Below, one piece after another: positions 20,309 through 63,808 of a stretch of 64,000 nucleotides of DNA. A program made the translations under genes and the position numbers. A model generated the notes under the pieces. The model ran no database searches and was not told the DNA's origin. It saw only the letters and a program-made list of their open reading frames with translations. Origin of the DNA: Siphonodentalium dalli. Its lineage: Eukaryota; Mollusca; Scaphopoda; Gadilida; Siphonodentaliidae. The stretch covers positions 149,173,819 through 149,237,818 of the forward strand of contig CP136064.1 in assembly GCA_032622095.1 (NCBI GenBank). The letters are read 5' to 3'. Position 1 is the first letter of the stretch, and each line of letters starts with the position of its first letter.

Positions 20309-23300
20309 AAGACAGTCAATGACTGTGGGGTCGCTCACCAGACTGCAAAGACTGATAAGACTGGGACTCTGGAGACCAAAACAGTCAGCACTTTTCATAA
20401 TCACTTTAAAAGAAGTAGATTTAAACAGGATATGTGGCTAGAGAGACTTAGCTTGGTAAAAAACCACCTTGAAATTGCCAACTGTACACTACTGATCACC
20501 CCCCTCCTCCAGCTCAACAAGTCCCCTCCCAACCGGGATCCAGACTCCCAAGTCTTAGGTTGGAATTTCACAACCGACACCTCAAACTTTCTCAATTGTT
20601 GGAAATTTACAATCTCACAAGCGCCTTTTTCTAAAACCATTTAAACATGTTTGAAGCCCAATTATCCATGGACCCAAAACACAATACATGTATGTCAGAC
20701 CAATCAGTCAGGTGGTTCCAAGGTAGATGTTTTAATGAATTTGGTATTTCTATGATTTTATTGGACACAAAAGTGTTAACTCCCCATAGACTGCCATTTC
20801 TTGACAGGTTGACCTCATTTTAACAAATCTGTATCTCAGTCACTAAAGGATCTTCCTGATTCCTCCATACTATATGTAAGCTAAATAGTCCAAAATCCCT
20901 TGAGAAGACATTTTAAGAATTACTATAGAGACATATAGTTATGTCCCTGGTCCCACCCTATTTAACCGGGTGACCCCATCTGAATAAATTTGAATCCCAG
21001 ACACCAAAGAACCCTTCATACAAATCATAAATATCAGTCAAATAGACCTGATGGTCCTTGTGAAGGAAGCATATTAAGAGGGAAACTGTCCTTCGCTTGG
21101 CCCCTATTTGACCAGGTGACCCCATTAAAAAAATCTGAATTGCAGTCAAGGAAGAACATTCCATTCTATATAAGCCAACTAGTTCTTGCAAACATATTTT
21201 AAGAATTACTATGTAGTGAAATAGTTAAGTCTCTTGCTCTGCCCTTATTTGACTTTGTGATCCCATTTTCACAAATCTGATAAGGATAAAAATTAAGTTC
21301 CCCAGTTGAAGTTGGTGATATTCACCCATTGGGCACCTCATTTATGAATTTTATTTTCTGCAAATTAGGGGATATAGAAACTTCCTAGAAGGGAAATTTA
21401 ACTAACAACAATGTAAATTTGATACTACAGATACTTCCCAGAAGATGAGGCCTAAGCAGAATGAGGACGCCAGAGGGTGAATTTGGTGATGCTAGCCTGC
21501 TGTGCCGGATAGCATCACAAAAAGCGTGTCTGTTCCTACATTGTGTATGCCTGGCCTCAAGCAACACAATGTATTATACAACAAGCCTTGAAATAGTGTG
21601 ATAGTGTGTCTGTCATTTGCGGAGTGAGGTCCCCAGAGGGTGAATTTAGTGATGCTAAATTCACCCTCTGGGGACCTCATTCTGATAAAGTCCTCAACTG
21701 CTATGGAAGACCTAGAATAAAATTGAATTTCCCCAGTTGAAGTTGGTGATGTTCACCCATTGGGCCCCTCAATTATGAATTTTATCTTCTGCAAATTAGG
21801 GGATATAGAAACTTCCTAGAAGGGAAATTTAACTAACAACAATGTATATTTGATACTATAGATACTTCCCAGAAGATGAGGCCTAAGCAGAATGAGGTCC
21901 CCAAATGGTGAATTTGGTGATGCTAGCCTTGAATCAAGCTTTGAAATAGTCTGTCTGTTATTTGCAGAATGAGGTACCCAGAGGGTGAATTTAGTGAGGC
22001 TATCCTGCACAGCGGGCTAGTATCACTAAATTCACCCTCTGGGGACCTCATTCTGATAAGGCCCTCAACTGCTATGGAAGACCTAGAATAAGATTGAAGT
22101 TCCCCAGTTGAAATTGGTGATGTTCACCCATTGGGCACCTCAATCATGAATTTTATCTTCTGCAAATTAAGGGATACAGAAACTTCCTAGAAGGGAAATT
22201 TAACTAACAACAATGTAAATTTGATACTATAGATACTTCCCAGAAGATGAGGCCTAAGCAGAATGAGATCTTGAGACTCTAGATACTTCCCAGAAGATGA
22301 GGCCTAAGCGGAATAAGGTTCTCAGAGGGTGTATTTGGTTATGCTAGCCTGCTGTGTAGGATAGCGTCACTAAATTCACCCTCTGTGAACCTCATTCAAC
22401 AAATGCCAGGCACTCTGAGAAAATGAAATTAATCTGATTTTAATGACCACTGAGTGATAATGTAAACAACAAGGGTGCTTCATTGATAACACCATTAATC
22501 TCATTTAAATTATGGATGACATGAATACACTCCCTGGGGACTCTATCTGTCATGTCTATCAGTTCATATGAGAGTTGCCTTGTAATGGGAATTTAAAAAA
22601 AAACTTTATTTACCTGTGAGTTAGGATATGAGATAGGGTGGAATGCTGTTGGTTGGGGGCAGGGTGGGGTTCTGGGTCATGTGGGGGGGGGGGGGGGTGA
22701 TATTTTTTTTTGTATGTTAAATTGATCAAGGAGTTCCTGAATTTTTTATTATTTTTTGGGGAATTATGGCCCTGGCTCCACCACTATTTGACCCAGTGAC
22801 CCCATTTGAACAAATTTGAACCCCAGTCATTCAATGACCCCACATACCAAATATAAACTAAATCGGCATAATGCTTGTTGACAAGAAGTCGTTATAAGAA
22901 TTACCAAGGAGGAATATAGTTATGGTCCTGGTTTCGCAACTGTTTGATACAGTGACCTCATTTGTACAAATCTTAATGACAGTCACCTAGGGAACATCCA
23001 CACCAAATATGATCAAAATGCAATTTTTTGGTTTTTAGAGTTATGTCCCTGGCTCTGCCCCTAATTGACCCAGTGACCCAATTTGAACATATCTGATTCC
23101 CAGTCATCCAAGGTCTCTCAGTACCAAATATAAGCTAATTCGGCCAAATATTTTTGTAGAAGAAGTCATTGTAAGAATTACTATGAGTTATGGCACTGGT
23201 TTCTCAACTAATTGACCGGGTGACCTCATTTGAACAAATCTGAACACCAGTCACCCAAGGACCCTCCATACCAAATATTAGCTAAATCGGCACAATGGTT

Positions 23301-23604
23301 ATGGACAAGAAGTCGTTGTAAGAATTACTGTGGAGGAATAGAGTTATGGCCCTGGTTTCGCAACTATTTGACCCAGTGACCTCATTTGAACAAATCTGAA
23401 TGAGAGTCACCTAGGGAACATCCACACCAAATATGAACCAATTCGGTCTTCCGGTTTCAGAGGAGAAGATGTTCAAAGAATTGTTGACGGACGGACGGAC
23501 GGATGGACGGACGGACGGATGGATGGACGGATGGACGGACGGACGACGGACGAGGAGTGATGACTATAGCTCCACCGGAGACTTCGTCTCAGGTGAGCTA
23601 AAAA
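20309..23604 (+). mobile_element. family B tandem-core element, complete, 3.3 kb
   Basis: The 5' end has a CAGTCAATGACTG hairpin followed by TCGCTCACC. The core has many diverged units, around GTTATGGCCCTGG, TTTGACCCAGTGACC, CATTTGAACAAATCTGAA and CCAAATATAAGCTAAATCGG, plus a separate three-copy block at 21300-22400. A (GACG)n tract follows (23485-23555). The 3' end is the hairpin AGCTCCACCGGAGAC-TTC-GTCTCAGGTGAGCT, then AAAA. This core-array, ACGG-microsatellite layout is that described for 'pearl' elements of bivalves. Confidence 0.7.
21295..22400 (+). repeat. three-copy block inside family B element
   Basis: Units start CCCCAGTTGAAGTTGGTGAT at about 21301, 21731 and 22102 and contain ACTTCCTAGAAGGGAAATTT and CTTCCCAGAAGATGAGGCCT. 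They also carry palindromes such as CCAGAGGGTGAATTTAGTGA followed by its complement (21634-21680; 21978-22045). Confidence 0.75.
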
Positions 23605-26600
23605 CATGAGCATAAAGTCATGTTCTGTGGCGTAATGCAAGGGTTAATTTATCGACAAAACATTCTTTATAGAGATCTTCCAAATCAGCATTTACTTTTA
23701 TTTATTGAGATTGCTCAACACCCTGTGCGTGTGCACAAAGTTGGATTTCAATTGGGAAGAAAGTATCACATGTTTCCAATTTCCAGTTAGTGTGCTATTT
23801 ACTGTACATAATGCGTGCATAGTTATTTTTAGCAACTCCTGTAAAATTTGTGCCATTTTTTTCTATTTTAAAATTTATACAAATTGTTCTCGGACTCCAT
23901 GTTTGACTTGGTTAAACCTTTAATACACTTTATTGACGCGAACTAAAGTTGCGAGTTGCACATACTTCTGAGTGTGACTTAATTGGTGTGGTATTGGAAA
24001 CAACAGGTATTTATCTGCAAAATTTGTTAATTAATTTTTAACTAGAGCACCTGCCAGTTAAATATTATGACTGTTCAATGTACAATATGCCTACTTAAGT
24101 TTCCGGACAACTGCAATGGGAGGCCCTTTTCACATTTATTAAATAATTGGACTTAAGTTCCCATTTATTTGAAGCAACTTGAAGTATCTGAAATCACTCT
24201 CACAGGATGGGCCTGGTCACAAGTCAACCGGAAACGACTCCCAAATGCTTAAAGCTTGTCGAATTACTTTCATATCATCAATGTTTATACTTGTTTTGTG
24301 ATATGTTAAAATTTAATAATATGGACTAAATACTGCTTGCACCAAGAGTAGGGATGGAACTAAATATTTAAACAGTGTAATACATACATTTTATTTATAA
24401 CATTAATCAATATATGACTATTGATATGATGCTGTTTTTTTTATTTACATAACTAGAACCTTGATGAACACAATGTTTGAACATTCTTTAAAATGACAGA
24501 TTTGAAATAGTCATGAAGTAAGATCTCAATGGAAAACGCTATAAAATCAAAGTGCATTTCTACTGCTAACATTGCTTCAGTAGCTGACTAAGGACAGCAG
24601 AAGAAAAGGTGAAATTGAGAATATTTGTATTGCAAAACTAAACAAATCAAATCAAAGCAGAACAGAATGACAGAGATTTTATATCATGCCTCCTGTTCTT
24701 TAACTTCTATAGTTCCCACAATCAAAATCTTGAATCTGAGAACCAAGATTTGGGTTTATTTTCAGGCAAGGGGGTGGTTGCTGCCACATAAATAAAATGT
24801 TGCTGCCACTATTACTTTGACCATAGCAACAACAATGAGCTTATGAAAATATGATAAAAAATTGTGCAATTGTGCACCTTTTTGAGCCATTCCATATTAG
24901 CTGTATTATTTTAGTCAAGCAAAATTACCTGTGATTTTACATGGCTAAGTTACAATATTGTTTAACAGAACAGATTCATCACCCCCAGAAATGTTGAAAC
25001 ATTGCAACATGTTCAAATAATCTGTATAAAGAAAATATTTGAAATTTTAATGGAACCTCACCTAAAAAGGGGACCATTTATAAACCTTTAAGTTGAGGTA
25101 TGCTCCAGAAATATACATGTATCAGCATGTATTTTTAAAAATAATTATGCCATTATTTTTTTGGAATGTAATTTGCTAACATGATCACTGCCAGGTGTTG
25201 ATCCAGGTCTATTTTGAAAACATATAAATGCTGGTCATATTTTATCAAGGATAGACACACTTTATTTTTATAAATTTGGTAATGTCTTTAAAGGGGGAAT
25301 GTACACTAAATCCGGCATCTCCTTTTATGCTCATCAGAATATATGCAACTAATGAATAAATTTGAGCCATGCATTAATGAAAAATACACTTGTGTGCAAA
25401 CAACATGGTAATTAAAATGAAAATGAGTTTATTGACTCGAGTCATAAACTCATTTTCATTATAATTACCATTTCATTCTAATTATTCACTGGTTATATTA
25501 GGTATCCAAAATTTAAGCCCGGTGTTATTGTTTGAAGTCTCAAAGGACATTATAAACATAACATTCTATACTATATACCACTGTAAGAAGCTCTCAAACA
25601 GAATAAATAAAATGCCAATAAAAAAGTAATCTAGTCATAATTTTTTATCAATACACATGGGCAGGATACATATTGTTGCCATCAAGGATGCAGAATTGGA
25701 AACCGCCTTGTCATTTCTGCTTGTATATGTGGAAAAAGAAGCTAATTATAAGATAAAATGTTTTATTGTAGAAGTACCAAGGATTGTTTAGAGAGTTTCT
25801 GTATGTGTTTTATCGGAACTGTAATCATTGATTTACTGCATAGGAGAACACTATCTTGTAGTCAGCATTCCAGTGACACACAATGTATTTGTGGGGCAAA
25901 TTAAATATTATTGCTCCTATGTTATCATACGGATCATACAGAATCATTGGCAAACCTGTATATTAAACCTTTCTACAATAGATGGATTCTCCCACTCAGT
26001 TTAATATAAATTATATGTTGGAATTATTTATTATTCATTTTTGAGGCAGTTCAGGAAAAATATACAGACGAGAGATATTAAAATTGTAGAAGGAGTCCTA
26101 TTTAATGTTCAGATAATAGGTCATTTGTTGAACATTTTATCTGAACATTTATCAATGAGTATTTAGTATAGAAATAGTTAATGGTATACATTGTGTATAG
26201 GGGACCAAAACTTTATTTGGGCCTTAAATTGAAGCCTGAGCTTCATCTCTAGATCAACACCTGATTCTGCCAACCATACCACATAAAACAGCATCTGTCA
26301 TGATTTTAATTAAAACACAATCAATTAACTGAAGGAGCCTAATTTGGCACTTTGATACATCTTGATCAGTGACATAAAACAAAAACAATTTAAAAATCCA
26401 AATTGTGAGTATGAAACAAGTGATGTGATGATAAAAACCTACATTGACGTGAGATGATGGTAAACGAATGTGGGATTTGTATCCACAATATTCCACAAAT
26501 GACAATGAGAGAAACTTCCTCCAACAAGAGATGGATTGTCGTCAGGTGCATACCCCCTTGTGGCATACCACCTAGTGTGAGCATATCTATAACCTATGAC

Positions 26601-26639
26601 TGATATACTCAAAGAGCTGGACCCCAAAATCAGCATTAT
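23605..26639. other. 3-kb stretch without recognised genes
   Basis: Mostly AT-rich and single-copy-looking, with short ORFs only. The palindrome at 25400-25480 is the single clear feature. Confidence 0.5.
25400..25480. repeat. palindrome, about 80 bp
   Basis: Arms ATGGTAATTAAAATGAAAAT and GAGTTTATTGACTCGAG pair with TCATAAACTCATTTTCAT and TATAATTACCAT. The centre is GACTCGAGTC. Homology does not extend further out. Confidence 0.7.
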
Positions 26640-27023
26640 CATATAAACAAAGATGAATAACTATAGAACAAAAAACCTAAACAAAACAATTGAAAACGCC
26701 ATTGAATGTCCTCATAGTGGCGAACATCCATACCAAATTTCATTGAGATCTGAGCATTACTGTTCAAGTTATGGCCTGAACAGACATCGGACAGACCAAA
26801 GAACCAACATTTCCAGATAAACAAAGATGAATAACTCTAGAATGGAAAACCCATATAAAACAATTGAACCCACTATTGAATGGCCTCATAGTTGTGAACA
26901 TCCATACACCATTTGATTGGGATCTGAGTATTACTGTTCAAGTTATGACATGAACAGATATCAGATGCACAGACGCCCGGGTGCAAAACAGTGTACCCCA
27001 TTTTTTGTTAAAAGGGGATATAA
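26640..27023 (+). repeat. family C-like element, degenerate
   Basis: Two units share AACAAAGATGAATAACT, CATTGAATG-CCTCATAG and CCATACCAAATTTCATTG. The end is GTGTACCCCATTTTTTGTTA...AAGGGGATATAA, a diverged version of the family's 3' hairpin. The (GACG)n tract is reduced to GCACAGACGCCC. Confidence 0.55.
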
Positions 27024-27399
27024 TAACAGCAACAATAGGAATGATGCTGACAGGGAATACCTTTGTATGTTTTGAAAGATCAGATTATGAAAAGACCCTG
27101 AATGAAAAAATATGAATTAAGTAGGCGGCTTGCCATCATCACATGGATACATGGATGTGTAGATTACATATATAGAATAACAGTCATAAGATTGAGTTGA
27201 AGGAATCTACGACAGAACTCTAACCCTCAGTTCATACTGGTGTTTATATGGGAATCACCAGTCTTCATTTTATATACCATATATATGTGCTTTAAATCCA
27301 TCTTTTAATATAATGATCATTTATCAATATCTATATATTTATTTTGGCTCAAAGAATAGAAGAGATATAATAGAACAATCGAGTAACTTAGTTAATTGG

Positions 27400-30533: not shown

Positions 30534-33500
30534 CTGCAAATTATTAAAAAAAAATGATTTTGTTTGTTACATTGGCGTAAACATATTATTATGCAAACGC
30601 ATTTTGAGCACAAATTCATAAATAAAGCAATACATGTAGTGCATAAACGTAAATGAAATCAACAAAAATGGGGATTAAACAATCTAGACTATTATTAAGT
30701 TTGTTACCCTTCTGTTTCATGCCCTCTCTACATTTAGTGACGGTGAGGAGATTCAGAAGACAGGAAAGACAGGAAACAGTATGAATATCAGAGATAGTTT
30801 TTTGGGGACTGACGTCTAAGTTAAACAGACAATTGGTGAAACAGGGAGTGTTGGAGAAAGCAGAAGAGGGAAATGTGGAGAAAGTGAGAGCAGTAAATGA
30901 AAATGAGTAAAATTTTAAAATTTTAGAGTTACAGTACAGCCAAACAATAACATTACACTAGCAAGTGCAATTCCAGGTGGGGCCCAATGTCCTGAGCCAT
31001 AACCCTTAGAATACGAGTATAGCTATCAGAAATATTTGAAGAATTAAAATGTAATTCGATTGGATTCATGTTTATAATTATTTAATATAATCTATATATA
31101 TATAGTAGGATCTGTCTATCTGGTCATCGGGTAACCCAAAATGCATAAATATATGTATAGAAAAATGCACGCTTTGTCTACGTTATCTCTAAAATATATA
31201 GAGCACCTGTCCACACAATACTGACAGCCAAAGGGATGTATAGATTCAAGAGGGGTATCAGAATTGACTGAGAAGAATTGTCAGCATTATTCTGAGATAT
31301 TGAAATTGTTTTATTGTCGCTGTACATTGAAGGTCACTCAGTGGTTCCAGTTTACTTCCGTGTTGTGAGAGTGACAAATAGCCAATCTTGGCATCAAGGG
31401 ACTGAGGCGACCTAAAGACAAGTTGCAGTTTTAAAGATTTGAAATGATGTCTGACTGCTATTTTGGCGTGAATTATGTTGGAATACTACGCAATTACTTT
31501 TATGGTCAATTTTATGGGACATTACTCGCTCATCTTGGAATTTATAAAGCCGATTTAGCTGGTTAATAGGGAACGTGGTTAAATGAAAGTGTCAATGACA
31601 CTGTAGCTTAACTTGGAAAGGGAATAATTTCATGTGTTACAGTCAATGGAGTGATTAGGAATGTGGAAAGTTGAAAGGCCTAGTTATGCAAAGAGTAAAA
31701 TCCAATATGGCCACTGGCAGCCATGTTTTTTTGCCAAATGACCCAAAAAAGATTCTTTCCCATTTACATGTCAATATCAACAGCTATGACAAATCTCATA
31801 ATGATCCGACCAAATGTATGACCTGTCGCCCGTACCAAAGGATTTATACATGCAAAGAGTGAAATCAAAGATGGCTGCTGGTGGCCATGTTTTTTGGCCG
31901 AATGACCCTAAATGACTCGTTCCCATCTACATGTCATTATTAACATACATGACAAATTTCATGATGATCAGACGAACAGTACGATCTGTAGCCAGTGCTA
32001 ATGGATTGAATTTTTAAATCCAAGATGGCCGCTGGCAGCCATGTTTTTTTGCTGAATGACCTCAAAATGACTCGTTCCCATCTATATGTCATTGTTAACA
32101 TCCATGACAAATTTCATGAAGATACGACCAAAGCTACGACCTGTAGCCCATGACAAAGAATTTAGTCATGCAAAGAGTAAAATCCAAGATGGCTGCTGGC
32201 GGCCATGTTTTTTGGCCCAACGACCCGAAAATGACTCGTTCCCTTCTACATGTCAATATTAACATCCTTGACAAATTTCATGATGATCAGATGAACAGTA
32301 CAACCTGTAGCCCGTGCTAATGGATTGAATTTTGAAATCCAAGATGGCTGCTGGTGGCCATGTTTTTTTGCTGAATGACCCCAAAATGACTCGTTCCCAT
32401 CTACATGTCAATGTCAAAGGCCATGACAAATTTTATAATGATCCGACCAAAGGTACGACCTGTAGCCCGTGCTAAAGGAAATTGTTGACGAGTCACGCAC
32501 ACATACACCCTCACGCACACATGGATGACGGATACCAAGCCATGGTAATAGCTCAAACTTTACAAAGTAAAACCTTGCTTTTCTACGCAGATTTGTCAAC
32601 AGTTTTTTCCCAATTTGTCATTTTAAACACCAGTTGCATCTAGTTATTGTATCAACACATGATTAATTATTGTCAATATTCTCCCAAAGTCACATTGTTG
32701 ATAAAAAAAGAGCGTTTTCCAGATGCTTTGTGTGATTTTGATGACTGATCACCAAAATAATGCATATATTGAAGCGAAATAACAATGTGATTACCAATAT
32801 TGTCAGTTCGTTTGAAGACGGGGTAGTTTCCAAGCAACAATTTCTAAGCGCAGTGATTGCTTGACGATACCTACCTATCTCTTAGCTCTGCCAGGAACAT
32901 TCATGTGGAGTTTCAGGTAAATAGTGCATTTACAATATTACTAACATCAGTCATATTAATATTGGTGTCTATAAAATAGTAGAAAACATCATGTGAGGTC
33001 TGGGCATATGGCCCATTCCATGCATGGGAGTCAGTGTTGAAAGGGTTAAATTGAGCAAGGAGTTCAATCTAAAACATTTTTTTTAATTAATTAAAAAATA
33101 TTTCAATTGCAATTTCAATTTTTTTTAAACTCAAAATGTTTAAACAATCAAAATGTGCACTTTGCGCATAACATGGCCGCCTCTGTCTAAGATGTTCATG
33201 CACAAAGGGGGCACATGGCCCAACCGATGCTAAATTAAAGTCTCCTGAAGGGTGTATCAGCTAGTTATTATTATAATTATAGACACTAACCTCGTTGATG
33301 GATTTCAGAAGTTTGGCGATAAGTTTTCTAACTGATGAGAGTTTGTTCGTGGCTGTGTCTGCTTCGGTTTTCCTTGCATTTGCTTCTGCCTGGAAGTTAC
33401 TCACAAGCTGAAAAATATCAAAGTTAATGTGAATATGTGTCTACTTTATTCTGAGATAATATCAAAATATAATTAATTTTATCTGCTTTTTTACCTGCTA

Positions 33501-51500: not shown

Positions 51501-54500
51501 TTTCAATCAATCATATCCTGATAATGAAGTATTTATATCAGCTAATTATGTATTAGGTATTTTTCGTGCGACAAAGACACGCCTATTTTAAGTTTGATCG
51601 ACAGCTGTTGTTTTAACTAATTGTCGTAGAGCCAACTCACTCACGTTTTAGTTGGGATAAAAAATAGATCCATGCACCTGTGATTTGTAAAGAAATCAAA
51701 TAGAGAAAAGATATCCTTACCCAAACTAAAACATAATTAGTGATTCAAAAGAATAAAATGGTCAATTTAAGCGAGTCACCGGAACATTTTTTAAGAAAAT
51801 GACGGGGTTCTCCGAAAACGGATACCTACTCAGTGCACGTGCCAGGTACCACGAATCTGTTTACGTTTTGACAAACACATGATTTCGAGTGTCTGTATTA
51901 CAAGATCCCGCACATTCTGTACATATGTACATTCTGTTCTGAGAGTGTTCTGTTCTTGTAGTCCCTCCTTTGCATGAGGAGCACCCCATATATAATGGGT
52001 AACAATATTGATATCGTAAAAAAAGAGTCTACTCCAGTCTGGCCCGGAAGCATGGATGCATAGACTACCTTTGCCCCCCCCCCCCCCAACCTCGACGAGA
52101 GATCGCGATCATCTAGCTATAAACCAAATTTAAAACCCACCCAGCCTGTCTGGAGACCCATTCGCATAGGCATAGAATGGCAACTTGGATTCATATATGC
52201 GAGTAATTTGGGGATATTAACATTAGATCTGTCGATACATGAAGATTATAGAAACGCGACACACACCAGGAAAACGTTTGAATCTGCCGGGTAAACATGA
52301 GTGACATGCGATGGGCTTTACGGATTCAGCCAATCACGCAACGAATAGATAAACAGTGAAGAAATATCACAATACATTCTGATACCGGTACATTGCAGAT
52401 AAAATACGTTAATATGTTAAACAATTAGTCATAATTGAATGAGTATGCAGATTATGCTAATATGGTAATTGATATGACAATCAATGATGATTAAAGTGTA
52501 ATTTGATGAGATGAAAGTGGAGTGAAAATCATACAATTTATCAATTTATGTGCATATGTAAAGTACGGATTCGGAAACGAAAAAAATATTTCCGATGAGA
52601 ATAATTGTTACTGCCAATTAATCTAATAATACCTAATACCTAAAAGAATGCAAATAAACCACTATCTGATTTTTTTTAAATGGAAAATCCACGACCATCT
52701 GGGCCCTAGATCTATGTAGGCCTATAACACAAATCGAACATAAAACGTCTCAATCGGTACCGATTTCACCGAGTGTTTTTGCAACTACGGCGTTAACTTT
52801 TTCATACATGTACAACAACAAATCGAACGTTAAAAGTTTCAATCAATCGGTACTGATTTCACCGATTGACTTACCGACTGCGATGTAATGCGTTCACTCA
52901 TGGATATTGATCGGTAAAATCGGTACCGATTTTACCGTTAATGACGCTACTAACGTGATTACGCTGTCTGACTTTACCGATTTTTTTCCGATTCAAAAGG
53001 CTTGAATACAATCGGTAAATGGCAATCGGTACCGATTGGAGTTTTGAGATGACCCTTTAGTGCCTATGATTTAGTGCCCAACCTCCAAAACAAAAGGCAC
53101 CAATTTGGCATCTTGAAACCCCACGATCAGGACACACAAATTTAATTATCTGTTTCTCGGACATTTTTTCACCGACACAACAGGCAGGTTTTTATTCTCA
53201 CTTGTACAACAAGCAGGCAGTTTTTATGTTTACTCCCAAATTTTCCTAAAAATATACTATGTATCATTAAAAGTGTTAATGCAATTTAAATGTAACAGTA
53301 AATATTCAAGTACACAGTTTAAAACAAGACAGTCAATGACCATGGGACGCTCACCAAACTGAAAAGACTGAGAAGACTGGGACTCTGAAGACTACAGCAG
53401 TCAGTACTTGACAAAATCACTTAAGACAAGTGGTTCTAAACATGGACATAGGGGGTTCTCAGATGAGCAGGGCTCTTCACCTTGAAATTTCTAATTGCAC
53501 ATCACTGACAAATCACAGACCGCTTACCCTTTTTTAAGAAGACAACCATACCACAGTACTAAGTTCACAAAAATCCTTTTGCACATACCTCTTAGGTTCA
53601 ATTTTAAAACTGGTAATGGTACTTCAAGCTCTCAAATTGGTAAATTACCAACCTGACATCCCCATAAAGTAAAAATTTGATTTTACAACTGGTACTTCAA
53701 GCTCTCAAACTTTAGAAAATTACCAACCTGACATCCCACATATAGTTAAAATTTGTGGATAATTCGGTCCAACAGTTTAACCTGAAGTAGGAACATATGA
53801 ACAGTTGGTTTAAGAACATACTGGTTGGAAAATCAAATAAAACTATGAGAACAATTCTAACCTATTTTTGATGTGAAAATCTAATCTACATGTTGTAATC
53901 AGGCATGAAATTTTCAACTGTTGAAAATTTGATCAAAGTAGGGGGTCAAAACTCCACCCTCTCTACACTCCCTCCCCATTGCCTGAAACAATTTCCCCAC
54001 CAGGCAGTGGTCAATCCATTTTCAACAAGAGGTGTGCACTCGAGTGCTAGCATACCCCACTGTGGCAAATTCAACCCGCATTATCCGTAAACCCAACAAA
54101 AAAGATTTTTAACTTTAAAGAAAATTCGGACTAATCATATCGATATGATGTCACAAGAAGCTTGTACATAAAAAATTATTCAAATTGGTTCATATTTGTT
54201 AAAGTTATTAAGTCGGACAGAATTTTCTAAGTCAAAATAAGTCGAAAATGAAGTGTAATATTACGAAAAACAGTCTAAGCCAATCCCTAGCCGCATCATG
54301 TAGAGAGGGTGAGAAGCATGTATACCAAAAATTATTGAAATCGGTTCATATTTGTTAAAGTTATTAAGTCGGACAGAATTTTCTAAGTCAAAATAAGTCG
54401 AAAATGAGGTGTAACTTAAAAAAAAAGTCGGACCAAACCACAATTAGCATCATGCGGAGAGGCAGTCCTAAGGAGATTGCATACAAAAAATTATTGAAAT

Positions 54501-55784
54501 CGGTTCATAGTTGTTCGAGTTATGAGGTCGGACGGACGGACGGACGGAAGGACGGACGGAAGCACGGATGGAGAAAGCGTGACGGACGGATGGACGCAGT
54601 CAATCCAGTATACCCCCCATTTTTCTTCGAAAGTGGGGGTATAATAATAATCAATATTATTATAACAGTACCAAACAGCATAGATACAGGTAGGGAGGGT
54701 CAGGTAGAGTTAAATCTCTTATCTCTGCCCCTATTTGAACAAATGTTCAACTGTTGAAAATTTGATCAAAGTAGGGAGTCAAAACTCCACCCTCTCTACA
54801 CTCCCTCCCCATTGCCTGAAACATTTCCCCCACCAGGCAGTGGTCAATCCATTTTCAATAATAATCAATATTATTATAACAGTACCAAACAGCATAGATA
54901 CAGGTAGGAAGGGGTCGGGAGAGTTAAATCTCTTATCTCTGCCCCTATTTGAACAAATGTGAATCCCCAACCTATTGTTCAGACGTAATATTACATAGAT
55001 CTGTGATATACAAACCAATAGAGTTATCAGCAAAGTTCATGCAAAAGACTGGTCATTGCCCCAATTGAACCAGCAGTCTGATATTTATTAACCTGTCCCC
55101 ATCAACATTGCTGCTAGATTACCAACACACAGTGTTCAAGCTCCTAATTATTTCATTGTATATACCATTGGAAAAAGGAAGTGTCTGTGGTGTGACAGTT
55201 TAAAGATTTGGCACTTAATTGCGAGGTTTAACTCAAACCCTCGGTTTTCATTCTACAATCACGTGTCACAACAAACTCATGCAAAACATTGACCAATTCA
55301 CACAATTGTGTTTTTCTATAGAAATGAGGATATATTCATGATCACTGAAGCAAGCACATTTTAAGCAATGAACACCCATAATGAGTCCGTGCCTCCATAA
55401 ATCTGATATTTTTATTTTTACTCCTATATTAATATGTGGATCAAACAAAAATGTGGATGTAATCGAATCCAATCTAAAATGAAATTAATATTAATATTTA
55501 GCATGAAATTAACGAATATGCACAGCCCCCTAAATCATATTGTGTAATCTTCAATGCAGGTAATTTAAACTGTCATTTCAAATTCGATTAGAAATATAAT
55601 TAAGTTGGAGGAATATAAACACCTGTCCATTGGGAGTAGGAGTTGAAGTGACCTTGGCATTCTGTGTCCTTGACCTTTTGGCTGGGGTAGCTTCAGTCTC
55701 TTCTTCCTCTTCAGACTCCTCAGATTCAACGGTGACTTTCCGTTTTCCAGGTTCTTTTTTACTCTTTGGAGTGGCCTTTTCCAC
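30441..55784 (-). CDS. MORC2: MORC2-like protein, C-terminal 303 residues (nine exons, 5' part outside window)
   Basis: Nine exons join as 55784-55623, 50106-49989, 44890-44848, 43187-43098, 40863-40830, 38676-38555, 35496-35364, 33407-33291 and 30533-30441: 912 nt including the stop. Every intron is GT-AG and every split codon rejoins in frame. Family knowledge: MORC2 is a nuclear GHKL ATPase with a CW zinc finger, a chromo-like domain and C-terminal coiled coils; in vertebrates it works with the HUSH complex in heterochromatic silencing. Seen here: acidic/basic linker (residues 1-94), chromo-like barrel (about 94-149, with KKWKIKFDYNPKAKYDKWFD), Ser/Thr/Pro linker (150-189), a conserved block starting TCLRYFLPPQWV with FPLDDFFDQYEKGLRK (191-234), a coiled coil (about 222-275) and an acidic tail. 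The last three match my memory of the human MORC2 C-terminus. Introns are 1.7-5.5 kb and crowded with mobile elements. The ATPase and CW exons should lie beyond 64 kb. MORC2 rather than another MORC is chosen from the C-terminal block. Confidence 0.88.
30534..31581. other. intron sequence, nothing recognised
   Basis: Lies between the last two coding exons, upstream of a family A element. Includes a purine-rich patch near 30740-30910. No gene is supported. Confidence 0.5.
31582..32575 (+). repeat. family A element, tandem ~165-bp core, 3' end truncated
   Basis: The 5' end is AATGAAAGTGTCAATGACAC, TGTAGCTTAACTTGG. The core repeats AAGAGTAAAATCCAAGATGG, GCCATGTTTTTTGGCC, AAATGACTCGTTCCCATCTA, CATGACAAATTTCATGATGA and ACGACCTGTAGCCCGTGCTA about six times. 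The 3' hairpin stops at CAAAGTAAAACC and lacks GTTGAGCT. Confidence 0.75.
32576..33290. other. intron sequence with a MITE-end relic
   Basis: GTGTTGAAAGGGTTAAA near 33040 resembles ends of small dispersed repeats at 36150 and 47690. Otherwise nothing is seen. Confidence 0.4.
33291..33407 (-). CDS. MORC2: MORC2-like exon: C-terminal coiled coil
   Basis: This 117-nt exon is in phase 0 at both ends, with acceptor TTTTTCAG and donor GTTAGT. It encodes residues 235-273, a Leu/Ala/Lys/Glu-rich helix (LVSNFQAEANARK, LSSVRKLIAKLLKSINE) with heptad-like spacing. It corresponds to the last coiled coil of MORC2. A hAT-like element sits about 230 bp upstream in the preceding intron. Confidence 0.88.
33637..34700. 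mobile_element. non-autonomous hAT-like element, 1064 bp
   Basis: Termini CAGAGCTGTTAAGTT and, on the other strand, CAGACCTGTTAAGTT are flanked by the 8-bp duplication TTGGTCAT (33629-33636 and 34701-34708). CAG ends plus an 8-bp duplication are typical of hAT elements. It lies in the MORC2-like intron between the 35364-35496 and 33291-33407 exons. No transposase was recognised inside. Confidence 0.85.
34765..35350 (+). repeat. family A element, short, complete ends
   Basis: It begins AAATGAAAGTGTCAAGGACA, CTGTAGCTCAACTTGG and ends AGCTCAAGCTTGACTTCGTC, AAGTTGAGCTAAAAA, a clear 3' hairpin. The core uses the second unit type (CCATATGAAGTTTGGCGATG, GATTGGATGAGGG). The 3' end lies about 15 bp from the splice donor of the 35364-35496 exon. 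Confidence 0.75.
35364..35496 (-). CDS. MORC2: MORC2-like exon: conserved C-terminal block
   Basis: This 133-nt exon has acceptor TTGTTCTAG and donor GTGAGT. It completes Arg190 and encodes residues 191-234: TCLRYFLPPQWVMDKDSIS, then FTELASFPLDDFFDQYEKGL and RK. The LRYFLPP and FPL-x-x-(Y/F)F-x-QYE-x-GL signatures are the most diagnostic MORC2 residues in the window. In vertebrate MORC2 this block precedes the final coiled coil used for dimerisation. Confidence 0.9.
35497..36492. other. intron sequence with a MITE-end relic
   Basis: AGGTCCGG/CCGGTCC-like palindromic sequence lies near 35560-35610 (ACCGGTCC, ACAGGTCCGG). CAGGGTTCAATGGGTTAA near 36150 matches the right end of the 47488 insertion. 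Confidence 0.45.
36493..37343 (+). mobile_element. Helitron-like non-autonomous element (copy 2), 851 bp
   Basis: A|TCTGTGTGTGTATG begins the element at 36493. The 3' end has the hairpin AGCCCGGACGAAGTCGGGT (37315-37333), then CTAG at 37340-37343 followed by T, so insertion between A and T is preserved. It shares the minisatellite units with copy 1, here about two copies. It lies in the MORC2-like intron between the 38555-38676 and 35364-35496 exons. Confidence 0.7.
37344..38554. other. intron sequence with the 27650-type repeat
   Basis: 37366-37810 matches the dispersed repeat described at 27650-27840. The rest, up to the exon at 38555, shows nothing recognisable. Confidence 0.45.
38555..38676 (-). 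CDS. MORC2: MORC2-like exon: Ser/Thr/Pro-rich linker
   Basis: This 122-nt exon has acceptor TTTTTCAG and donor GTATGC. It encodes residues 150-189 plus two bases of Arg190. Composition is Ser/Thr/Pro/Ala-rich (EAPSSTTTPTSVSSQATED), so it is probably a disordered linker and a possible phosphorylation target. The end (IANGY-R) joins the conserved TCLRYFLPP block of the next exon. Confidence 0.83.
38745..39540 (+). repeat. family D tandem-core element
   Basis: It starts with GGCCACACATCACCCATATA and AGGTG. Four diverged units follow (ACAACAAAATAATCAGCAAA, GGGGCATAACTCCATCAGAA, CATACTAAATTTGAAAGCTA, TATCATCCGGACAAC). It ends in a short GATGGAAGGATGGATGGGGC tract and GCTAAAAAACC. It lies in the intron just upstream of the 38555-38676 exon. 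Confidence 0.6.
39541..40829. other. intron sequence, nothing recognised
   Basis: AT-rich with ATTAATTAATT runs near 40110-40160. No gene or bounded repeat is supported. Confidence 0.5.
40830..40863 (-). CDS. MORC2: MORC2-like exon: end of chromo-like barrel
   Basis: This 34-nt micro-exon has acceptor TTTTTCAG and donor GTGAGT. It completes Trp138 and encodes FDKSSNDIRLK, the last helix or strand of the barrel. It is identified by phase fit with both neighbours: a two-base remainder upstream and phase 0 downstream. Confidence 0.83.
41246..42724 (+). repeat. family A element with inserted 455-bp element
   Basis: It starts AATGAAAGTGTCTGACACTG, TAGCTCAACTAGG and ends AGCTCAAACTTGACAAATCA, AGTTGAACTAAAA (hairpin). 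Both core unit types are present. The insert 41768-42222 interrupts one unit. Confidence 0.75.
41768..42222 (-). mobile_element. 455-bp GGAATCA-ended element (copy 1)
   Basis: GGAATCACTGAAC...GCTCCCTGATTCC is flanked by the 4-bp duplication TAAT (41764-41767 and 42223-42226). The flanks rejoin to the family A unit GCTAATGGATTGA. It is an inverted copy of 46129-46586. A 97-codon minus-strand frame stays open in both copies, but the product is unrecognised. Confidence 0.85.
42725..43097. other. intron sequence, nothing recognised
   Basis: AT-rich sequence between a family A element and the 43098-43187 exon. No repeat or gene signal is seen. Confidence 0.5.
43098..43187 (-). CDS. MORC2: MORC2-like exon: core of chromo-like barrel
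   Basis: This 90-nt exon has acceptor TTTTCAG and donor GTAAGTA. It encodes residues 109-137 with split Trp codons on both sides. It contains YSGLVVKVNSSEKKWKIKFD and then the Tyr-Asp-Lys-Trp ending typical of this fold. The aromatic residues (Tyr109, Trp123, Phe127, Tyr129, Tyr135, Trp138) would line the barrel. In vertebrate MORC2 this domain is thought to bind chromatin. Whether a full methyl-lysine cage is present cannot be judged from sequence alone. Confidence 0.88.
43188..44847. other. intron sequence, nothing recognised
   Basis: Part of the 43.4-44.6-kb stretch is GC-richer and may be an unrecognised element (TTTAACCCTTTTCAGTG at 44118 resembles MITE ends near 33040). No TIR pair could be matched. 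Confidence 0.4.
44848..44890 (-). CDS. MORC2: MORC2-like exon: start of chromo-like barrel
   Basis: This 43-nt micro-exon has acceptor TCTTCAG and donor GTAAGT. It encodes EIGTKVEAYVNNE plus two bases of Trp108. The pattern 'G-T-K-V-x-A-Y-x-x-N-E-W-Y' is the usual first strand of Tudor/chromo-barrel folds. It is too short to be found as an ORF and was recognised from splice sites and phase continuity with the next exon. Confidence 0.85.
45160..45304 (+). repeat. family D 5' fragment, cut by family A
   Basis: GGCCACACGTCGCCCGATTA and AAATTTGATTCTGGGAACAA match the start of 38745-39540. It breaks at CCAGAATAA where family A begins. Confidence 0.6.
46129..46586 (+). mobile_element. 458-bp GGAATCA-ended element (copy 2)
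   Basis: GGAATCAGGGAGC...GTTCAGTGATTCC is flanked by TTTA (46125-46128 and 46587-46590). The flanks rejoin to a family A unit (GATTTAGTCAT). It is the same element as 41768-42222 in the opposite orientation, and both copies landed in family A arrays. The TIR is only about 7 bp (GGAATCA). An internal GGTGAAGGTAACTG...GACCTTCACC hairpin is present. Confidence 0.85.
47488..47697. mobile_element. 210-bp insertion with 14-bp target duplication
   Basis: TTAACATCCATGAC occurs at 47474-47487 and 47698-47711, on either side of GC-richer foreign sequence that interrupts a family A unit. A 14-bp duplication suggests target-primed retroposition (SINE-like). The right end CCAGGGTTCAAAGGG resembles ends seen near 36150 and 33045. 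No A/B-box pair or poly-A tail was recognised. Confidence 0.6.
48215..48530 (+). repeat. family D units after a family A insertion
   Basis: CCGGACAAGAAAATAATCAG and GGGGCATTACTCCAACAGAA match family D units. They resume after the family A element 45305-48166, which probably interrupted one family D copy. Confidence 0.5.
48655..49075 (+). repeat. family C-like element with (GACG)n and 3' hairpin
   Basis: Units contain CATATAAACAAAGATTAATA and GAACATCC-TACCAAATTTCATT, then GACGGACAGACAGACGGACG, then the hairpin GTATACCCCCATTCTC-TTCG-AGAGTGGGGGTATA (49041-49074). Confidence 0.65.
49440..49625 (+). repeat. family A core fragment
   Basis: AACAAGATGGTTGCAGGTGG, CCATATGAAGTTTGGCGATG and TTCATGCAAAGAGTAAAATC match the second unit type of family A. 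No ends are visible. Confidence 0.5.
49626..49988. other. intron sequence, nothing recognised
   Basis: AT-rich, containing a TATATATATA run near 49837. No gene or bounded element is seen. Confidence 0.45.
49989..50106 (-). CDS. MORC2: MORC2-like exon: acidic Ser/Asp/Met linker
   Basis: This 118-nt exon starts in phase 0 after TTTCAG and ends one base into a codon at GTAAGT. It encodes residues 55-93 plus the first base of Asn94. The peptide is acidic (SSQDESGLLDGD, MDMDADINTSLDEPDVD) and leads directly into the chromo-like domain of the next exon. No enzymatic motif is present. Confidence 0.85.
50480..51041 (+). repeat. family E tandem units, about 140-175 bp
   Basis: Three to four diverged units share CTCCCCATCCCAGACTC-like, GGGCCACTCTGATTTCTTTA, TAGAATCCTCATATCATGGA and GTTTGGTGGAAATCGGCAAC. 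Sequence resumes at 53056-53150 (GCACCAATTTGGCATCTTGA), so the 2-kb element 51042-53055 inserted into this array. Confidence 0.6.
51042..53055. mobile_element. 2.0-kb TIR element with GGTACC-centred palindromes
   Basis: GGGGTCATCTCAAAACT on the left and GGGTCATCTCAAAACT on the complement of the right are flanked by TTTA (51038-51041 and 53056-53059). Both ends carry repeated AATCGGTACCGATT and ACCGATT motifs (51085-51250; 52748-53040), in both orientations. The centre (about 51300-52740) has no recognised coding sequence. The superfamily is unknown to me. Confidence 0.75.
53323..54036 (+). repeat. family B 5' fragment
   Basis: It starts with ACAAGACAGTCAATGACCAT and CGCTCACCA, then ACTGAGAAGACTGGGACTCT, as at 20309 and 61937. 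It continues to CACCAGGCAGTGGTCAATCC, where family C sequence takes over. The segment 53905-54036 is repeated at 54735-54856. Confidence 0.55.
54037..54646 (+). repeat. family C tandem-core element with 3' hairpin
   Basis: Three diverged units share ATTGGTTCATATTTGTTAAA, GTTATTAAGTCGGACAGAAT and GTCAAAATAAGTCGAAAATG. A (GACG)n tract follows (54531-54598), then the hairpin GTATACCCCCCATTTTTCTT...AAGTGGGGGTATA (54608-54643). Confidence 0.65.
54643..54966. repeat. 214-bp direct duplication
   Basis: TAATAATCAATATTATTATA through ATCTCTGCCCCTATTTGAAC occurs at about 54645-54745 and again at 54859-54960. A copy of the 53905-54036 segment lies between them. The arrangement implies a local duplication after family C inserted. 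Confidence 0.7.
54967..55622. other. intron sequence, nothing recognised
   Basis: Lies directly downstream of the first visible MORC2-like exon. No repeat boundary or extra exon was found. Confidence 0.45.
55623..55784 (-). CDS. MORC2: MORC2-like exon: charged linker (residues 1-54 of the visible part)
   Basis: This 162-nt exon is in phase 0 at both ends. The acceptor TAG sits just above 55784 and the donor GTGTTT just below 55623. It encodes a Lys-rich stretch, then an acidic run (SEESEEEEETE), then a basic patch (PAKRSRTQ) and a Thr/Pro tail. Such charged, probably disordered sequence with a possible nuclear-localisation patch fits the region between the CW domain and chromo-like domain of MORC2. 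It is the most upstream exon I can identify; the next one 5' was not found in the window. A Harbinger-like MITE starts only about 100 bp upstream of the acceptor. Confidence 0.8.
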
Positions 55785-56818: not shown

Positions 56819-57461
56819 GAAAAGTGTCAATGACACTGTAGCTCAACTTAGACAGGGGAAAATGTCATATATTACGGTCAATGGAGAATGGAGAATGTTT
56901 AAGTGACCAGAGATCAATTGGATAATGTGATTATTTAGTGATACAAAAAGTAAAATCCAAGAATGCTGCCATGATTTTGATCGAATATCGTTCAAATTTG
57001 ATAGCTCCCATCTAGAAGTGATCCTGAACATGCCTGTAAATTTCAAAACATTTCTCCAATAACTGTTGGCTGCAGGGTCATGAAGTAATGAACTGACAGG
57101 TAAGTATATAGGTTTCATTAATCCACCCAAGCTGGGCTATTGCCATGCCAAAGCACAAACAAACCTGATGAGTCACAAGGGAGGGTACACAATGTATTTA
57201 ATTGATTTTCAATAGTGGTACTGGCATCAAATAAAAAAATTCTTCCAGGTCGAATTTCTTTTTTTTAGTGGACCATGACCATACTATGGGTGGATGGCCT
57301 TGGTTGGGTGTGGGTTATTGGAAAACAGAACCCGAGGTCACCAGTCCGAATATCCGTACGAAGTTTGGTGACGATTGGATGAGATATTGAACTGTAGGGT
57401 GTGCTAAAGGAAATTGTTGTCAGACGTAAAATTATCTCATTTTCGTCAAGTTGGGCTAAAT
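56819..57461 (+). repeat. family A element, short
   Basis: The 5' end is AAAAGTGTCAATGACACTGT, AGCTCAACTT and the 3' end ATCTCATTTTCGTCAAGTTG, GGCTAAA. One or two second-type core units are present. Confidence 0.65.
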
Positions 57462-57925: not shown

Positions 57926-58117
57926 TTGGTGGCGATGGCTAATTTCGACGGCGATGAGCGGCCGGACGACGAGGATAATTGGGGTTTTTGGAAAATTCAA
58001 AACTCGAGGAATACAGCGCGTAGAGGGCTCATTTTGGTGTCTAACGAAAGGCCGATATTCGCCCTATCCACACATATTAACCCCGCCACTGAACGGACAC
58101 CGAAAGTTGCATTATGA
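57926..58117 (+). other. CpG-rich unrecognised ORF, 63 codons
   Basis: It reads MVAMANFDGDERPDDEDNWG then FWKIQNSRN, with acidic composition and a GGCGATGGC start context. CpG density is higher than in the surroundings. It lies next to the FLYWCH/MULE remnant on the opposite strand and may be transposon terminal sequence. Product unknown. Confidence 0.2.
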
Positions 58118-58217
58118 ACGAAGAAATGCACATGTGATATATTTCAACAAATTTATTAAATACTCAAGATATATATAACAAATACTATCAATATAACATA
58201 ACATGAATTATAGCACA

Positions 58218-61202: not shown

Positions 61203-61253
61203 TTAAATAGGGTCGGTCGGGTTAGCGGAAACAAACGTCTTTTTTTTTTAGAC
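61203..61253. mobile_element. orphan right end of a Harbinger-like element
   Basis: AATAGGGTCGGTCGGGTTAG, then CGGAAACAAACGTC and a T-tract ending AGACC|TAA. This matches the right end at 7575-7625 almost exactly. The matching left end was not found, so the element is truncated or its left part has diverged. Confidence 0.6.
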
Positions 61254-61369
61254 CTAACCAAAGAATGCTGAGGTGATCAAATGATAACATACTAACATAC
61301 ATACAAAACATATCTTCCAACAAGAGCTAGCCATTTCAAATTGTACTACCGCAAAATAAAATAATAATT

Positions 61370-61826
61370 TGAGATTCCAAAGAATATCTGATATACCCCT
61401 AATTTCCATGCCAAAATGCGGTCAAATTATATGTCGAAAAATGGCCGTAACTCATGTAAAAATAATTGGACAGAACCTATATTCGAAATTGGCCTGTAGT
61501 TTTAGCTGGGAAACACACATACCAGCTTTGGTTCAGATAAAATAAACCAAACTGGAGTTATCAGTCGGAAACGGAAATGTTATGAAATCAATCATATTCT
61601 AAGTCGAAAAAGGGCCATAACTCATGTAATAACAATTGGACGGAACCCATATTCGAACTTGGCCTGTAACTTTAGCTGGGAAATACACATACCAACATTG
61701 GTTCAGATCAAATAATCCAAACTTGAGTTATCGGTCGGAAACCAAAAATGTTAATGGACGGACGGACGGATGGCTAGACAGACGACTGATTACATAATAC
61801 GACCTTTTTTCAAAAGGGCGTATAAA
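61370..61826 (+). repeat. family D-like element with (GACG)n and 3' hairpin
   Basis: Two units share AAATTATATGTCGAAAAATG-like, GGCCGTAACTCATGTAA and TTGGCCTGTA-TTTTAGCTGGGAAA. A GACGGACGGACGG tract follows (61756-61770), then the hairpin TACGACCTTTTTTCAAAAGG-GCGTATA (61799-61825). Confidence 0.55.
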
Positions 61827-61842
61827 AATGTATAAATATTAA

Positions 61843-61936
61843 AAATGAAAGTATCAATGACACTGTAGCTCAACTTTGTAAAGAAGGTAATTTTTTTGTG
61901 ATGAGCAATGAATAGAGAGATTAAAAAGGAGTGTAA
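61843..61936 (+). repeat. family A 5' end, interrupted by family B
   Basis: AATGAAAGTATCAATGACAC, TGTAGCTCAACTTTG matches the family A start. It breaks at GGAGTGTA before the family B element. Confidence 0.65.
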
Positions 61937-63808
61937 CAAGACAGTCAAAGACTGTGGGGTCGCTCACCAGACTGCAAAGACTAAAGACTGATAAGACTGG
62001 GACTCTTGAGACCATAACAGTCAGAACTTTTCATAATCACTTTAAAAGAAGTAGATCTAAACAGGATATGTGGCTAGAGAGCCTTCATGTCGATCGGTGA
62101 ATATCTATTAAATTACCAATGGAACACTACAGATCACCCCCCCCCCCCCCCCCCCCTCCAGCTCAACATATCCCACAAGCACCTTTTTATAAACTATTTA
62201 GACATATTTGAAGCCCAATTATCCATGGACCCGAAAACACCATATATATATATATGTCAGATTAATCAGTCAGGTAGTTCCAAGGTAGATGTTTTAAGTG
62301 AAGTCCCCATAGCCCCGTAATTTCTTGACAGGTTGACCTCATGTTAACAAATCTGAATCTCAGTCACTAAAGGATCCTCCATACCATATATAAGCTAAAT
62401 AGTCCAACCTCTCTTGAGAAGACATTTTAAGTATTACTATAGAGACATACAGTTATGTCCCTCAGGTCCCACTCTGTTTAATCTGGTGACCCCATCTGAA
62501 TAAATTTGAATCCCAGACACCAAAGAACCCTTCATACTAAACATCAGTAAAATAGACCTGATCATGGTCCGTGTGAAGGAAGCATATTAAGAGGAAAATT
62601 GTCCTTTGCTTGGCCCCTAGTTGACCAGGTGACCCCATTTAAAACAAATAACCCCATTTGAAAAAAATCTGAACTCCGGGTCACCCAAGGACCCTTCATA
62701 CCAAATATGAACCCATTCAACCTGATGGTACAGCAGAATAAGTAGTTTTTAAAAATTACTATGGAGGGCAAGAGTTATGGCCCTGCCTTCATAACCATTT
62801 GACAGAGTGACCTCATTTGAACAAATCTGAATGTGAGTCACCTAGGGAACATCCACACCAAATATGAACCCATTCAGTCTAGAGAAGATGTGAGCTCAAA
62901 AATTACATTTCATTGAATAATCTGTAAACCCCCCCCCCCCCAACACAGTAGGGACACCCCTGCAAGAATATGACATATATGATTTATTTGAATGCCTGAC
63001 TATATTGGCTTAACAAAATTTCCATGACCTTGAAAGCCAGTGCATTCTCTTTTATATGGGAGGCTTCCCATGGGAGCATATATAAGAGAATGCACAAGCA
63101 CAGGGTCTTCATTTCTCTCACCAGCACAACTCTGGTCATGAAATGTTGAATATTAATAGTAAAAATAAACTTTATCTGTCAAACAGGTAATTTGTATCTG
63201 AGATAAACATGGGATAAAATTCCTTCATAAAGCCACTATCAGCTACCAGAATGTCTGGGAGACCTGTTGACATGGAGATAATTAATGATGGCACAAACGT
63301 TTTGCAGAGCAATACCACTGTATTGTGTTACTCCTACAGCTGTGATCAAAACAAGGATTTTAATGGGGTGAAGTATGCAGAGATAATATGGTATGGTACA
63401 GCATGGTGTGGCAGGGACAGGAGGTGGGGTGGGGTGGGTAGCTGTGATGTGTCTAAAAAAAATCAAAGATCAAAATGCAAAAATGTTATTTTTTTAATTT
63501 AGAGTTATGTCCCTGGCTCTGCCCCTATTTGACACAGTGACCCCATTTGAACAAATCTGAACCCCAGTCACCCAAGGTCCCTACGTACCAAATATAAGCT
63601 AAATCGGCCCAATATTTTTTTTAGAAGAAGTCATTGTAAGAATTACTATGAGTTATGGCCCTGATTTCTCAACTAATTGACCGGGTGACCCAATTCGGTA
63701 TGATGGTTTCAGAGGAGAAGATGTTTAAAAAATTGTTGACGGACGGAGGGACGGACGAGGAGTGATGACTATAGCTCCACCGGAGACTTCGTTTCAGGTG
63801 AGCTAAAA
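61937..63808 (+). mobile_element. family B tandem-core element, complete, 1.9 kb, nested in family A
   Basis: The 5' CAGTCAAAGACTGTGGGG then TCGCTCACC, core units, (GACG)n at 63738-63758 and the 3' hairpin CTCCACCGGAGAC-TTC-GTTTCAGGTGAGCT match 20309-23604. Family A 5' sequence (61843-61936) precedes it and family A core (63809 onward) follows, so it inserted into a family A element. Confidence 0.7.
62995..63150. repeat. diverged copy of the 27400 foldback MITE
   Basis: It shares GCATTCTCTTTTATATGGGA, its inverted partner CATATATAAGAGAATGCA, and CCAGCACAACTCTGGTCATG. It lies inside the family B element 61937-63808. Confidence 0.5.

Follow-up and report, generated by a model that had tools for sequence, protein, structure and literature searches.

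Satellite-carrying repeat families of a Siphonodentalium dalli chromosome with the end architecture of non-autonomous Helentrons

The window analysed here is a stretch of 64,000 nucleotides from the scaphopod Siphonodentalium dalli (contig CP136064.1, positions 149,173,819 to 149,237,818), part of a 2.23 Gb genome in 9 contigs. It raises the question of why several repeat families with dissimilar tandem cores, named A, B, C, and D, carry a common set of ends. An answer is offered by the fact that all of them look like non-autonomous Helentron-type rolling-circle transposons of the HINE or "pearl" kind: with a probability of about 0.9, the four families are HINEs, i.e., non-autonomous Helentrons harboring short satellite-like arrays. 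Unrelated families under one end architecture have already been published for the Cg_HINEs of Crassostrea gigas (PMC7492417), and A to D are new members of this kind. Look-alike repeats are thereby traced to one published transposon architecture, and the strand sense of their ends is put right.

A shared end architecture in the minus-strand sense

On the minus strand, families A to D follow the order TT, a subterminal inverted repeat (subTIR) with a complementary arm forming a hairpin, a microsatellite, a tandem core, a second subTIR, a palindrome, and TT. The microsatellite is of the GTCC type, and the layout opens with a T-run and closes T-rich. Family A reads TTTTTTAGCTCAACTTTAC-TTT-GTAAAGTTTGAGCT ... 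core ... AAGTTGAGCTA-CAGTGTCATTGACACT-TTCATTT, and family B reads TTTTTAGCTCACC...GGTGGAGCT ... GGTGAGCGA-CCCCACAGTCATTGACTGT-CTTGTT. Families C (TTATACCCCC... ... GGGGGTATGC... CTCTTGTT) and D (TTATACGCCCTTTT... ... AAAGGGCGTATT... CTCTTGTT) share the terminal CTTGTT with B. In published HINEs the 5′ module consists of a subTIR, a complementary inverted repeat (IR), and a microsatellite, while the 3′ module is a second subTIR followed by a palindrome (PMC7492417, PMC4067079). Since A to D match these modules on the minus strand, what the first-pass annotation had called a 3′ hairpin is the HINE 5′ end, and its strand sense was reversed relative to the HINE convention. The elements recognized in the window are as follows.

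19951..20044, minus strand: B, HINE 5′ end only (subTIR/IR hairpin and microsatellite), by end match
20305..23605, minus strand: B, full length; 3′ palindrome/subTIR 20305-20345, hairpin 23568-23600, microsatellite 23486-23552
26523..27024, minus strand: C, full length, two core units, by end match and genome copies with a sharp start
31580..32567, minus strand: A, HINE 5′ hairpin truncated, by end match
34764..35350, minus strand: A, short variant with a different core, hairpin altered on both arms, by end match
38905..39515, minus strand: E, core akin to D, ends not delimited, by core alignment
41247..42731, minus strand: A carrying a MITE-like insert of 0.46 kb (about 41770-42222), by end match
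45305..48166, minus strand: A, full length, two nested inserts (about 46129-46586 and 47488-47697), by end match
48650..49080, minus strand: C, microsatellite and HINE 5′ hairpin (49042-49074), other end not found, by end match
53323..53440, minus strand: B, HINE 3′ end only, by end match
54029..54647, minus strand: C variant, 5′ hairpin by match, 3′ end by eye
56820..57450, minus strand: A, degraded, hairpin end partly lost, by end match
61319..61830, minus strand: D, HINE 5′ hairpin at about 61798-61826, 3′ subTIR missing from this copy, by end match
61843..64000, minus strand: element of an A subfamily, interrupted by B and extending beyond the window
61934..63808, minus strand: B, nested in a T-run of the A element 61843..64000, by end match

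Two of these A copies contain a 0.46 kb element with inverted-repeat-like ends (46129-46586 and 41770-42222), 95% identical and in opposite orientations. The 0.2 kb insert in an A core at 47488-47697 lies between the copies of a duplicated sequence, AACATCCATGAC, at least 12 bases long.

Every motif quoted by the first-pass annotation was located in the window. (GACG)3 has 8 matches against 0.01 expected, found at B (19954; 23486-23545), C (54531), and D (61757); a microsatellite and a tandem core are present in the families, the microsatellite of A being short and degenerate and the cores variable in unit number. The A hairpin motif AGCTCAAACTTTAC is exact at 32550 and 48131 and altered at 35316 and 42691, with changes on both arms; a fifth match, at 62893, is not an A end. 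As had been claimed, the A hairpin arm recurs at the other end, with TAGCTCAACTT just inside it. The B motif AGCTCCACC is exact in the B ends at 20008, 23568, and 63773, with 4 more exact minus-strand matches elsewhere. TCAATGA palindromes are present near 31582 and 45307 (A) and 20312 (B), and the hairpins attributed to C (near 49042 and 54610) and to D (near 61798) were found. C and D had been said to fit the pattern "more loosely": hairpins and tandem units are indeed there, but the looseness is not, as genome copies carry paired motifs at both ends, namely ATACCCCC / GGGGGTATAA in C and, in D, AATACGCCCTTT inside one end and AAAGGGCGTATAA at the opposite one. The D copy of the window lacks such a stretch at its 3′ end.

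An inverted repeat adjoining the 5′ subTIR is present in all four families, as judged from the hairpin folds. Folded as single-stranded DNA, with one sequence per family, the 5′ hairpins reach z-scores against shuffles of -6.2 (A), -4.3 (B), -2.1 (C, for which 5/200 shuffles were equally good), and -3.8 (D). The values for the small 3′ palindromes are weaker, at -1.7 (A), -1.7 (B), -0.8 (C), and -3.0 (D), the palindromes of A and B being clear by eye. Rfam gave no match in the window at the gathering score.

The cores had been called unrelated, and this stands for A, B, and C/D as compared with one another, where there is little or no likeness; it does not stand for C, the C variant, D, and E, which are mutually related. 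In alignments scored against 400 shuffles, clear relationships link A with its short variant (z 9.2), this variant with the one at 41324 (14.6), and D with E (14.0), while the A core and the 41324 variant reach only 3.0. Apart from D with E, the relationships among C, the C variant, D, and E are weak (2.0-3.4). No relation (z below 1) was detected by this alignment between A and B, C, or D, or between B and D, and marginal scores were obtained for A with E (1.4), B with C or the C variant (1.6-1.7), and the 41324 variant with C (2.5). On the reverse strand, where scores were computed without shuffles, the 41324 variant scores higher against C and E than on the forward strand. A common origin of all cores is thus not supported for A, B, and C/D, save for that one A variant with C at z 2.5.

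By description rather than sequence, A to D resemble the Cg_HINEs of C. gigas in having a 5′ subTIR with a complementary IR and a 3′ subTIR followed by a palindrome, as well as microsatellites often of the GTCY type, tandem cores of 140-180 bp, a T-rich target, and no target-site duplication; some oyster families are, as here, unrelated in all modules yet alike in structure (PMC7492417). Also by description only, the pearl elements of Crassostrea virginica and Anadara have core units of about 160 bp in short arrays and are classed as non-autonomous Helentrons (PMC7492417). DINE-1/HINE-Mo and other Helentrons likewise show subTIRs, a 3′ palindrome, a TT preference, and no target modification, with a partner of the Rep/helicase/endonuclease type (PMC4067079).

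Ends and insertion sites in genome copies

When genome copies are aligned, C and D prove to have sharp ends at the named motifs. More than 1,400 exact genome copies of one end exist for each of these families. All 39 non-self loci listed for C start at query positions 6-10, and in each of the 12 copies read the element opens with (A)ACAAGAG, next to flanks that are unrelated; at the hairpin end GTATAA is found in 10 of the 12, with GTATAG in L031 and a degraded hairpin in L040. For D, 36 of the 39 non-self loci end at query positions 478-484 (the remaining three at 474, 489, and 491), and 5/5 copies read start at ACAAGAGCATC against unrelated flanks. Eight A copies were read, picked by their identity to 96 bases that include TAA, so that TAA in the A flank is not evidence; in three of them (L054, L055, and L058) no hairpin end was found by the motif used within the 3 kb fetched. 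Forty B loci, their own locus included, have a common 3′ stop in 26 cases (query 541-548), while 12 reach the query end and 2 stop elsewhere.

Five B copies read represent one larger amplified repeat with B inside it, and one B array has two 5′ ends and a single 3′ end. At L013 1361-2401, a B 5′ end with an inserted inverted-end element is followed by a core and by the start of a second B 5′ end; of the 40 loci scored, 12 (own included) match this unit at 98-100% over its full length, indicating that it was amplified together recently. The idea of a B end on a foreign body in locus c1a was rejected, as the body is the inverted-end element inserted within the B end. L068 3985-4675 is a chimera of a B 5′ end with the core and 3′ end of D, joined at the microsatellite; of 40 loci scored, its own alone covers the B hairpin. 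The same holds for the B 5′ end on a D body in locus p1, which was likewise set aside.

That these repeats are satellite arrays spread by recombination, without true ends and with chance hairpins, would agree with tandem cores of variable number and with some copies being embedded in larger duplicated units. A single sharp end next to unrelated flanks, seen in 12/12 C and 5/5 D copies read, together with the empty sites described below, leaves this explanation virtually no likelihood.

The two subTIRs of an element can be compared by setting one end against the complement of its opposite end and taking the longest exact stretch that they share. This was done for 32 elements (12 C, 5 D, 8 A, and 7 B). 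The set was defined beforehand without the A copies lacking a found hairpin (L054, L055, L058, and those of the window at 31580, 56820, and 61843), and also without the window's own C and D copies and without L044 and L045 (B of the amplified repeat). Within families the mean shared stretch is 10.3 (A), 5.9 (B), 7.6 (C), and 7.6 (D), the highest of each row, and 29/32 elements share at least 5 bases, i.e., have subterminal inverted repeats at both ends. This agrees with the covariation proposed between the 5′ motif and the 3′ hairpin arm, subTIR pairs following family with one exception between A and B, which is explained by the AGCTCA that both contain. The short variant of A has GTCAAG/CTTGAC in place of the GTAAAG/CTTTAC of other A copies, a change on both arms.

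Empty sites were sought with 17 joined C and D flank pairs (40 loci scored, 9 of which were read base by base). Strong junction-spanning paralogues were obtained for three: D at L047 (33 loci), D at L048 (6), and C at L029 (1). These paralogous empty sites, a kind of check proposed in the first-pass annotation, correspond to insertion between T and T on the HINE strand without target duplication; on the plus strand the insertion lies in an A-run and nothing is duplicated. The C site reads AAATAATGAAG when empty and AAATA[ACAAGAG...GGTATA]ATGAAG when filled. The empty site at L047 has six A's, which in the filled site lie two and four on either side of D, and at L048 the A-run is variable, the site agreeing with insertion without duplication within that variation.

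Other insertion sites were seen from one side or at a shared position. For A, homology between 38756-38905 and 45160-45304 stops at the A element, on one flank only, and in L052 an A element lies within the T/A-run loop of a C hairpin. The target side of B was seen only at a shared T-run site, TAAAAAGGAGTGTAA, which belongs to an A subfamily near its 3′ end and occurs 504 times in the genome (14 times as the reversed pattern). Among 100 of the 504 listed and counted by eye, 16 lead to an A end, 1 to a D end, 82 are empty, and 1 is unclear, some of the 16 possibly being copies of one event; the copy in the window holds B (61934). The presence of A, D, and B at one T-run position with the same boundary indicates that the families use the same site, as expected of shared machinery. 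The filling of one T-run site by three families is a point of difference from the Cg_HINEs as described.

These boundaries bear on two other readings. Families A to D might be foldback or MITE-like cut-and-paste elements (MITE, miniature inverted-repeat transposable element), mobilized by a DDE transposase through their subterminal inverted repeats. Inverted subterminal motifs do exist, and pearl was originally called a MITE (PMC7492417), but the three empty sites have no target duplication and in C and D the outermost ends do not form inverted repeats of each other (TTATAC... vs ...CTCTTGTT); the inverted-end element inside the B end of c1a, with an apparent short duplication, looks different. 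Such an origin is very unlikely. That the families are canonical Helitrons, with 5′ TC, 3′ CTRR, and an A|T target, is extremely unlikely: the layout is indeed of rolling-circle type, and other Helitron-type open reading frames (ORFs) with stronger Rep matches are common in the genome, yet C and D run from TT to TT with T|T insertion, in place of TC, CTRR, and A|T, and the only Helitron group with a visible 3′ end terminates differently.

Several observations weigh against the assignment of A to D to HINEs. Among B loci, the match begins at query position 1 or 2 in 37/40, some 24 bases beyond the inner 5′ end, and in A, B, and C the palindrome by itself folds barely better than shuffles. In the pairing analysis, A 3′ ends share 6.6 bases on average with B 5′ ends, slightly above B's own 5.9, and 3/32 elements (L040, L049, and the B of c1a) have no shared stretch of at least 5. 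Among the loci scored, 13/17 joined flanks gave no empty site and L049 (D) a weak one only (79%); full empty sites are limited to C and D, none being seen for A or B. Lastly, no autonomous Helentron with both ends matching A to D was found among the ORF loci examined.

Helentron reading frames and the search for a partner

A search of the same genome for Helentron Rep/helicase proteins with matching ends had been suggested; the ORFs were found, the Helentron matching at both ends was not. Helitron_like_N has at least 151 matches in the genome. An ORF of 2552 aa, scanned in two halves, contains OTU, DUF6570, Helitron_like_N (Rep-type), and PIF1 helicase domains, together with an Exo_endo_phos match (E 4e-4) below the curated cut-off. 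With such ORFs, the sharp ends of C and D, the T|T empty sites, and subTIRs that go by family, the proposal that varied satellite-like cores are mobilized by a single mechanism of rolling-circle type, pearl and Helentron-associated elements being kin, is supported, and we infer that A to D move in this way. A Helentron Rep would nick at the subTIR/hairpin end; the nicked strand would be displaced, terminated at the palindrome end, and joined to a T|T site that the endonuclease has nicked. As recognition would act on the ends, nearly any core could be carried.

Fourteen loci with Rep scores of about 90-111 bits were chosen and their upstream sequence fetched. The ORF start MPK was found in 10, falling into four families by DNA or N-terminus: c1 (2), c8/p1/p2 (3), c2/c8b/h3/h8 (4), and h8c (1). 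Element ends of the c1, c8, and c2 families are not delimited, the c1 copies being alike over more than 20 kb and c8 and p1 past the 3′ end of a downstream B. A HINE 3′ end lies at most 750 bases upstream of 8/10 ORF starts, with at least one copy in each family: A at 15 bases (both c1) and 450 (p2), B at 190 (h8c) and 671 (c8), and D at 677-728 in three of the four c2-family copies, with none within 750 for p1 and h8. In 146,679 bases of other sequence the background fraction of positions is 0.077, and it is 0.10-0.12 in four of five HINE-bearing stretches (0 in the fifth, downstream of c2). Given a background of 0.08-0.12, a limit of 750 set post hoc, and a high local density (18 HINE 3′ ends in about 57 kb upstream), among ORF copies that are related, the closeness of HINE 3′ ends to ORF starts is suggestive and was treated as a lead. 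In the other 4 Rep loci, no HINE 3′ end was found in the 3 kb fetched. At L013/L014 (C1:169.48 Mb) and L015/L016 (C1:214.42 Mb), an A-type 3′ end, a pyrimidine tract, and CAG precede the ATG, at 15 bases; behind them, both copies have a 2.7 kaa open frame of Helentron type.

For the oyster, HINEs could not be related to autonomous Helentrons (PMC7492417), whereas here 8/10 ORF starts have a HINE 3′ end nearby. For other Helentrons, HINE families more than 95% identical to a Helentron partner are reported (PMC4067079), and no such partner was found here. In the Helentron loci, a search for exact 10-base end pairs yielded nothing usable and one with ungapped arms nothing that was counted; the latter also missed known window elements, whose arms carry bulges, and its silence was therefore disregarded. 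When bulges were tolerated, a scan of the sequence upstream of six ORF loci returned three hits and no HINE end; as it also missed a known degenerate B end in p1, this outcome carries little weight. The candidate c8 as the partner of B was rejected, as in both c8 and p1 the B lying downstream is complete with its own two ends, and the likeness of these loci runs past the B 3′ end. In Helitron groups i and ii, 8 flank pieces contained no HINE 3′ end. A set of near-identical Helitron copies (L001-L006, 97-99.6%), whose frame begins, in the stretch examined, with a 69-base tandem repeat (about 23 residues), forms a young family. With four HINE families and Helentron-type ORFs in one chromosome-scale genome, this is a place where the partner question could be settled.

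Strand co-orientation of HINEs and Helentron frames

Across distances of about 20-60 kb, HINEs tend to share their strand with one another and with neighbouring Helentron ORFs. In the window, 22/23 end matches are on one strand, the remaining one being a hairpin matching itself, and 14/14 elements agree over 44 kb (19951-64000). Around Helentron ORFs, the ORF orientation is held by 25/25 upstream end matches and 6/6 downstream 3′ ends (4 loci; downstream only 3′ ends were tallied), copies within a family not being independent; two A-core stretches upstream of C1B are opposite. Genome-wide, cross-family pairs from exact-match or best-40 lists (HINE families only, window excluded) are on the same strand in 11/11 cases below 20 kb and 7/12 at 20-60 kb, i.e., 18/23 below 60 kb, then in 12/23 at 60-120 kb, 15/26 at 120-240 kb, and 39/58 at 240-500 kb, the excess in this last class showing how large the noise is. 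Disjoint cross-family neighbours below 60 kb agree in 17/20 cases, and cross-family pairs below 50 kb on one chromosome alone in 11/15. The idea arose post hoc from the window, and some close pairs lie in one amplified unit.

Outside HINEs, the window has 137 A-runs and 153 T-runs of at least 5; with no surplus of the needed runs, T-run supply there does not explain the co-orientation. Inside HINEs, runs of at least 4 favor A (144 vs 93 T), so that nesting could explain part of it; runs of at least 5 number 47 A and 50 T. A shared polarity across unrelated families and ORFs, in domains of roughly 20-60 kb and arising from insertion of single-stranded DNA into one strand of the replication fork, as reported for bacterial IS200/IS605 (PMC5371812), or of transcribed regions, is conceivable though rather doubtful. 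Fork-linked insertion orientation has been reported for bacterial IS200/IS605 and Tn7, and the passages of the orientation literature searched hold no such statement for Helitrons (PMC4683698, PMC5371812). If true, the way HINEs are oriented would preserve, as a fossil map, the direction of forks or of transcription in animal genomes, and the co-orientation, should it survive a control, would link eukaryotic rolling-circle insertion to replication or transcription direction.

Two further features of the window were observed. A 122-bp tandem repeat family occurs at 13577-14233 and 37024-37332, about 93% alike, with no HINE end matched at either, and at 11887-11991 dense GC-rich inverted repeats are made of GGTCCGGACC-like units.

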